DNA from: Candidatus Uhrbacteria bacterium
Lineage (GTDB): Bacteria; Patescibacteriota; Patescibacteriia; 2-12-FULL-60-25
Length of the DNA: 64,000 nt
Direction of reading: 5' to 3'
Assembly (NCBI GenBank): GCA_030649995.1
Contig: JAUSEV010000042.1
Coordinates: 1 to 64,000, forward strand
Part shown: one piece after another, positions 52,021 through 53,492 of the stretch
Numbering within the stretch: the stretch's first letter is position 1
How the letters are laid out: every line of letters begins with the position of its first letter
Translations under genes and position numbers: made by a program
Notes under the pieces: generated by a model
The model's input: the letters and a program-made list of their open reading frames with translations, nothing else
The model's database searches: none
Told to the model about the DNA's origin: nothing

Positions 52021-52059
52021 ACGGCGCTCCGCATGACTCATGCGGACGCCGTCTTTTTT
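52021..52059 (+). terminator. Terminator of the 51416-52003 gene
   Basis: Long stem (acggcg and ccgcatg paired with catgcgg and cgccgt around the loop act) followed by ctttttt. The convergent C-methyltransferase gene ends in its T-run. Confidence 0.88.
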
Positions 52060-53353
52060 ATACGATCTTAACCTCCGGCAACGGCACAATAAACTTTGTT
52101 CCTCCCGCCACAAGATCAGCTTCCCGTTTAATGAAACCATCAATGAAACTGTACGGCAAGGCGAGCAAGAAGTCAGGCTTGGCTCTGCGCATATCTTCTT
52201 CGCTCTTGATGGGAATATCCGAACCGATAACATATTTTCCCACCTTGAACGGATTGGAATCAGCCGCAGCAGCTATTTCCTCATGACCAAGATTGCAATA
52301 TTGAAGGATCGTATTGCCTTTAGTCGAAGCGCCATAGATCCAAACCGTTTTTCCATCTTGTTTAATTTTTTTTAACAAAGCACAAAGATCGTCTCGTGTT
52401 TTTTGGACTCTCTGCATAAACGTGTGATACGTCGTGGGATCAAACAATCCTTCTTTCAGTTCCCGTTCCAGAATTTTTTGATAACGCTCGGTCGGCACGA
52501 ATCGCTCACACCCTTTTTTCTTCACAAACACGCGAAAACTTCCGCCATACACATCATTTTCCATCACGTCAAACACTTCAAGACCAACCTGTTCCATCAG
52601 CCACTTCATGTGATGGGCGGCATAATAACCAGCGTGTTCGTGTACGATATTGTCATACATGTTGGTACGTATCATCGCGGGGAGATACGCCATTTGAATG
52701 ATCCACACCCCTTCGTCATCAAGACACGCGGCAACGTCGCGCGCAAAGCCCACCGGATCGTTCAGATGATAAAACATCGCGATGCTAAAAATCAGTTTCG
52801 CTTTTTTTGCGGACACGGTTTTGAAAGCCTGTTCGTTAAAAGACGTTCGGACATCGGTATAGCGAGGACCGTCCATCAAAGATTTGACGTTCTGCGCAGG
52901 ATCAATGCTGATAAGTTGATAAGGATCGTCACGAAAAAAAGAAAGGAGCGTCCCGTCATTTCCTCCGATATCAAGAATCACGTCTTCCGGTTGCAGATGG
53001 TTGAGCGTTCGCCCGCTCTCCGCCACATCCTGCAAAATTTTTCCCATGGATGAGTTGGTCGAACTCGTATAAGGATACGCGTCATACATCGCGGACAAAT
53101 CCAGACGATGGCCGAGCTGAATCAACCCGCACGTACCTGCATCCCCCGAAGCTTCAAGCGTAGGGGGACGTTTTTTACACATCACCATATCTAGAGGATA
53201 TCTGACCGCGGTCGAACGATAGTTGAGATCCGTCGGAAACACGGATGACAGATATTGCTCACCAATGTCGATGCACGGAATGAGCTCGGTATTTCCGCAC
53301 ACGCGGCATCGGTCGATTTTCGTCGCAGACACGGCTGTTGATGGTTGTGACAT
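52058..53353 (-). CDS. Sugar C-methyltransferase-like enzyme with zinc motif split by an in-frame insertion
   Basis: A three-part protein of 431 residues. The N-terminal zinc-binding domain has CRVCG (C16, C19) and C59...C75; the middle is a class I methyltransferase (DVILDIGGNDGTLLSFF, LISIDPAQN, LIFSIAMFYHLNDPVGFARDVAACLDDEGVWIIQMAYLPAM); the C-terminal part (VWIYGASTKGNTILQYCNL) is the NAD-like fold of the TylCIII/NovU C-methyltransferases acting on 4-keto dTDP sugars. Relatives read CxxCGLIQLGH. Here 39 bp (53132-53170) encode RPPTLEASGDAGT between the two Cys, moving C75 away from C59. It suggests a branched-chain deoxysugar in the glycan. Confidence 0.92.
   Translation of the reverse strand: MSQPSTAVSATKIDRCRVCGNTELIPCIDIGEQYLSSVFPTDLNYRSTAVRYPLDMVMCKKRPPTLEASGDAGTCGLIQLGHRLDLSAMYDAYPYTSSTNSSMGKILQDVAESGRTLNHLQPEDVILDIGGNDGTLLSFFRDDPYQLISIDPAQNVKSLMDGPRYTDVRTSFNEQAFKTVSAKKAKLIFSIAMFYHLNDPVGFARDVAACLDDEGVWIIQMAYLPAMIRTNMYDNIVHEHAGYYAAHHMKWLMEQVGLEVFDVMENDVYGGSFRVFVKKKGCERFVPTERYQKILERELKEGLFDPTTYHTFMQRVQKTRDDLCALLKKIKQDGKTVWIYGASTKGNTILQYCNLGHEEIAAAADSNPFKVGKYVIGSDIPIKSEEDMRRAKPDFLLALPYSFIDGFIKREADLVAGGTKFIVPLPEVKIV
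53132..53170 (-). repeat. 39-bp palindromic insertion (family D) in the C-methyltransferase gene
   Basis: Nearly palindromic core with arms cccccgaagctt / aagcgtaggggg. It is flanked by acgt on both sides, which may be a duplicated target or coincidence. Removing 39 bp would restore the CKKCGLIQLGH reading typical of the family. Confidence 0.8.
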
Positions 53354-53396: not shown

Positions 53397-53492
53397 GTTG
53401 TCATCCTGAACGGAGGTCGCCGGAGTGAAGGATCTTCGACGGTCCGAGGGGAGATTCTTCGCTTTGCTCCGCGACGCTCAGAATGACAAATG
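53397..53492. repeat. Intergenic family C repeat
   Basis: Runs from tgtcatcctgaacgg to cgctcagaatgacaaatg with an inner gaaggatcttcg...gattcttcgc. The GTCATCCTGAA / TTCAGGATGAC layout is a widely seen dispersed repeat. It fills the gap between the C-methyltransferase and the next gene. Confidence 0.75.

Follow-up and report, generated by a model that had tools for sequence, protein, structure and literature searches.

A short palindromic stretch within a sugar C-methyltransferase gene of Candidatus Uhrbacteria is very probably a copy of a dispersed, non-autonomous hairpin element of the Patescibacteria, 27-29 nt long, that landed in frame in a loop of the putative zinc-binding domain. The hairpin, with a conserved loop and a covarying stem, recurs in the same genome and in related genomes, in RNase P RNA genes (rnpB), in the 3' flanks of tRNA genes and in the gene for glyceraldehyde-3-phosphate dehydrogenase (GAPDH). 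At the methyltransferase site it is lineage-specific and is accompanied by an in-frame gain of 21 nt.

The methyltransferase and its putative zinc-binding loop

The following features, in the window (the whole 64,000-nt stretch of DNA analysed), are needed for the argument.

52058-53353, minus strand: host gene, encoding a predicted SAM-dependent sugar C-methyltransferase of 431 aa, of the MtmC/TcaB9/KijD1 kind, assigned from Pfam domains and a match to 4rv9
53297-53308, minus strand: Cys16 and Cys19, first pair of putative zinc ligands, invariant
53177-53179, minus strand: Cys59, third putative zinc ligand, invariant
53129-53131, minus strand: Cys75, fourth putative zinc ligand, invariant
53132-53170, minus strand: the 39 nt (13 aa) of the original prediction, encoding RPPTLEASGDAGT, whose last five residues, GDAGT, are not inserted
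53147-53167, minus strand: net gain over the orthologues, 21 nt in codons 63-69 (PPTLEAS), as judged from codon-level comparison with L012, L013 and L061, its exact placement being ambiguous by a few bases
53142-53168, plus strand: mini-hairpin core, TCCCCC-GAAGCTTCAAGCGTA-GGGGGA; the model match covers 53141-53169

The host protein contains the Pfam domains Methyltransf_13, _23 and _14, the four zinc cysteines and a conserved Glu-His pair, as do MtmC/TcaB9-type enzymes; C16, C19, C59, C75, E239 and H240 are unchanged among the 15 methyltransferase proteins compared. Its structure-linked match is 4rv9 (E 3.5e-49), and the same MtmC structure is the best match to the predicted fold (TM 0.90). 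While it shares domains, cysteines and predicted fold with the MtmC/KijD1/TcaB9 kind, it differs in the interval between the third and fourth cysteines, which holds fifteen residues here and 2, 4 or 8 elsewhere. Orthologues at 81% identity in the same genus, at 79% in the same family and at 61% in an Omnitrophota genome all read C-X8-C at this place (CRKREDGTTC, CEKKADGSTC and CAHRESPPSC); two homologues at 39-40% identity likewise have eight residues, and the spacing is four or two in remoter ones. Since the near orthologues have eight residues and this protein fifteen, the net gain is seven (PPTLEAS, 21 nt).

The original prediction had placed a palindromic 39-mer encoding 13 residues in this interval and had read it as a recent in-frame insertion. 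The 39-mer is there, and none of the close homologues carries the loop, so that a lineage-specific, in-frame insertion of a palindrome between Cys59 and Cys75 holds good. Its size does not: an inverted repeat lies inside the 39-mer but spans 27 nt, and the gain is 7 rather than 13 residues, the GDAGT of the methyltransferase aligning with EDGTT or ADGST in orthologues. The insert sits at a position of the zinc domain that differs in length among relatives anyway, and the age of the event can be bounded only as later than the split from a relative whose DNA is 77% identical.

The enzyme probably survives its insert, given that all four zinc cysteines are kept, that purifying selection is strong and that the predicted fold matches MtmC/KijD1. 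Comparison with the sister-species orthologue L012 gave dN 0.128 and dS 1.49 (near saturation), values that indicate strong purifying selection over the whole gene but span the whole divergence from L012 and are thus no proof of constraint after the insertion. The structural model has a mean pLDDT of 89.9, falling to 63 over the insert block (residues 61-70), and the model of the sister-species orthologue, which has no insert, is equally good (90.7). These models suggest that the insert is a flexible loop and that zinc binding is likely kept.

Between 53504 and 55531 an RmlD/epimerase-like gene adjoins the methyltransferase, with a family 2 glycosyltransferase further on, making up a sugar or glycan cluster. 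Another palindromic repeat, of the GTCATCCTGA...CAGAATGAC kind, occupies the intergenic positions 53398-53490 directly upstream of the methyltransferase start.

Structure and distribution of the mini-hairpin

The inverted repeat at 53142-53168 consists of 13-nt arms, 85% complementary, around a 1-nt spacer. By itself the folding energy of the stretch is unremarkable against shuffles (z -0.69); what makes the hairpin non-random is its repetition. In related genomes the copies have a fixed, asymmetric 17-nt loop, CGAAGCTTTATGCGAAG, between flanks that vary in sequence and are complementary. An alignment of 45 copies, all taken from other genomes, shows pairing in 95.6% of pair cells; 50 cells have changed on both sides of the stem, where shuffles give 11.9, and covariation scores 0.396 against 0.142 shuffled (0/500), with slid controls at or below 0.122. 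These rows were pre-selected for pairing, for which reason a search with the loop, blind to the stem, is the fairer test; it agrees, nearly all exact loop matches having complementary flanks. Four of the six reading frames are open in 41-44 of the 45 copies (the other two in 29 and in 5), so that many in-frame landings would be readable. Rfam yielded no match for the element or for the methyltransferase region.

The covariance model R1, of 29 positions and built with no copy from the own genome, was run on that genome (1.08 Mb) and returned 11 matches, the weakest of which may be chance. One is the methyltransferase copy (33.7 bits, E 7.6e-5 genome-wide). The identified sites comprise four in rnpB, one adjoining tRNA-Ser, one in a conserved noncoding block, one in the methyltransferase and one in GAPDH. 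A DNA search with 81 bases around the site found two further core matches, on contigs C6 and C8 (E 0.0017 and 4e-5), and in a pattern search the forward pattern matched five times and its reversed control not at all; the core is thus not unique in its genome. The methyltransferase and the other own-genome cases come from the sequence of one metagenome-assembled genome. All 11 matches lie on the plus strand of their contigs, eight in number, which would be odd if contig orientation is random.

The second coding case in this genome is GAPDH, which reads VIGVN-APTFAKASAGKQ-VINNASCTTNC, where 26 orthologues from the family have VIGVN-EKxAGKxA-xVINNASCTTNC or close variants; the net gain is three residues, and most of the loop has been replaced. 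In rnpB the own genome has four copies against one in the sister species. The RNase P RNA gene concerned (L105:2477-3109, contig C6, minus strand) is 633 nt long, and its sister-species counterpart 481 nt. The noncoding block (L106:2983-3182 and L100:524-720) measures about 200 nt, with 81% conservation from one sister species to the other, and holds one copy that shows a compensatory stem change; no Rfam family fits the block, which may be an undescribed RNA. Some copies have been kept vertically, with compensating changes in the stem, as on C8 of the own genome and C31 of G001. Vertical conservation with compensating stem changes suggests that copies have a function in some places and are not purely selfish.

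On a wider scale, model matches occur in 24 of 41 genomes of the family, with 0 to 55 in each (E <= 0.05), and in 118 of the 380 Patescibacteria sampled (E <= 0.001), the E-values being rough. Among 111 copies whose context was examined, gathered by several searches and hence not a random sample, 15 are in rnpB and 23 lie within 80 nt 3' of a tRNA. Others occupy terminator-like sites with T-tracts, group I introns (L263, L269), an RNase P RNA (L257) and spans matched by 23S rRNA (L252, L258, L270), where they possibly sit in intervening sequences. Coding insertions are a minority, most of the remaining copies being intergenic or in RNA genes. They also appear to include an 18-aa insertion in Pol IV of G195, relative to 7yll, that corresponds to two tandem elements, and an element at the C-terminus of an ATP-dependent DNA ligase in G454. 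Long open reading frames over other copies mostly have no Pfam domain, are probably spurious and were left uncounted, as were those for ribosomal protein L1 and IPP transferase, in which the element lies outside the true domain, ahead of it or behind it.

Two related genomes show variations of their own. In G016 the hairpin belongs to a dispersed repeat that is longer (about 100 nt or more) and exists in some eight almost identical copies (L127-L137). In G033 many of the 23 matches are a longer variant of 37-38 nt (for example L164), possibly a sister subfamily.

Competing explanations and mode of spread

The reading that fares best among the alternatives is that of a functional RNA signal with repeated origins, acting as terminator, stabiliser or protein-binding site, the gene copy being an antisense terminator or a selected mRNA structure. 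Many copies do adjoin tRNA 3' ends or T-tracts, the stem covaries, an orthologous copy carries a compensatory change, and CGTTTTTT comes after the methyltransferase copy on the plus strand. Some copies, in particular those that follow tRNA genes, also have the G+C-rich hairpin followed by a T-tract that marks intrinsic terminators. Yet the loop sequence, unlike that of such terminators, is conserved across loci and genomes, and the copies in rnpB, GAPDH, Pol IV and the methyltransferase do not end their host genes. At the methyltransferase copy the T-tract is on the antisense strand only and derives from two Lys codons, and the orthologous gene has no hairpin at that place. Without copying, it is implausible that the same asymmetric 17-nt loop arose de novo at many sites, and we regard this explanation as unlikely. 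Both readings may hold together, if a copied element was later exploited as a terminator.

It is highly improbable that the hairpin is of the REP type and is moved by a RAYT (TnpA-REP) transposase. REP elements are likewise short, dispersed palindromes, often beside genes and of a similar size class (20-40 bp; PMC3733652), and the copies described here are mostly intergenic. Against this, the Y1_Tnp domain (PF01797) is absent from the own genome and from several copy-rich relatives, among them G031 with 30 matches and G016 with 18, while some relatives that have Y1_Tnp have no copies. The frequent location within ribozymes and coding genes is unusual for REP, and neither REP tag, GTAG or CGTC, is found at the ends of the consensus, nTCCCCCGAAGCTTTATGCGAAGGGGGAT.

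Equally hard to credit is that a CxxC ancestor received 39 bp and a 4-bp target duplication of ACGT, as the original prediction implied in saying that removal of the 13 residues restores the family motif. ACGT is present on both sides, CxxC occurs in distant homologues, and a 40-nt match of 87.5% to the copy downstream of the gene in the sister species extends slightly beyond the core. The near relatives, however, all have eight residues, with DG.T residues aligned to the supposed insert, which disfavours the proposal on parsimony: CxxC is the state of distant relatives only, the flanking ACGT is not a target-site duplication in the orthologue alignment, and the unit that recurs is a 27-nt core. 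Indel drift of the ordinary kind, in a zinc-knuckle loop of variable length and with an accidental palindrome, would suit the natural spacings of 2, 4 and 8 and the unremarkable folding score but has very little probability, as the insert matches an independently built family model genome-wide and a second gene, GAPDH, carries the same element in a loop where 26 orthologues lack it.

We favour a copied element of the form [stem]-CGAAGCTTTATGCGAAG-[stem'], which would spread non-autonomously through genomes of the Patescibacteria. It would have entered the Cys59-Cys75 loop, in frame, once the lineage had parted from its sister species. Its retention would be owed to the tolerance of that loop for changes in length and to the absence of stop codons from the reading phase concerned. 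In the methyltransferase gene it appears to be tolerated rather than useful. The weakest step is the mechanism of movement, for which we propose that a hairpin donor may be copied, through template switching or recombination, into a target that looks like one arm of the stem. The proposal stems from the two own-genome coding cases, in both of which the 3' arm resembles sequence present at that place in orthologues (GGGGGA against GGAGGA in the methyltransferase, GGCGGGC against GCGGGG in GAPDH); two cases hint at such a route and carry low weight. The methyltransferase site lacks, in the orthologue alignment, the target-site duplication by which a MITE would be recognized. A search for a mobilising enzyme produced no candidate: Y1 transposase is absent from G000 (the own genome), G001, G016 and G031, and across the family copy number follows neither Y1 transposase nor reverse transcriptase, both of which were rejected as drivers.

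Relation to Rickettsia palindromic elements and significance

Protein-coding palindromes are best known from Rickettsia. The elements known there, RPE (Rickettsia palindromic elements; Ogata et al. 2000, 2002, reviewed in PMC2229807), measure 105-146 bp. Their host genes comprise 19 that encode proteins and those for tmRNA and RNase P RNA, and activity persists in one enzyme that carries an insert (PMC2229807). The mini-hairpin resembles them in being palindromic, repeated and open in several frames, and in its insertion both in frame into conserved protein genes (methyltransferase, GAPDH, Pol IV) and into RNase P RNA; like RPE, it seems to be tolerated by its host protein. It differs in length, with a core of 27 nt and a model of 29 positions, in its conserved asymmetric loop and freely covarying stem, and in its occurrence in Patescibacteria, RPE having been described from Rickettsia. 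On grounds of size we would class it as a kind of its own, shorter than RPE but working in a similar way. Searches of the open literature for the core sequence and for palindromes in CPR/Patescibacteria found no description, and an earlier one elsewhere is possible.

We tentatively suggest a wider view, which is possible though not the likelier outcome: a phylum-wide, transposase-independent mini-hairpin with a fixed loop, one of whose stem arms can be supplied by the target, may recurrently join RNase P RNA, tRNA 3' ends, introns, rRNA and core enzymes, as a selfish coding palindrome in minimal form, giving rise to new RNA helices and new loops in proteins. The presence of empty and filled sites in close relatives makes the mechanism testable. 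For annotation, peptides such as PTLEAS, FAKAS, SHKAS and EALCEGG in these proteins can be element-derived. A family a quarter of the size of RPE, found throughout a phylum of reduced genomes and within ribozymes and core enzymes such as GAPDH and Pol IV, would mean that short hairpins are able to seed new loops and helices outside Rickettsia as well.
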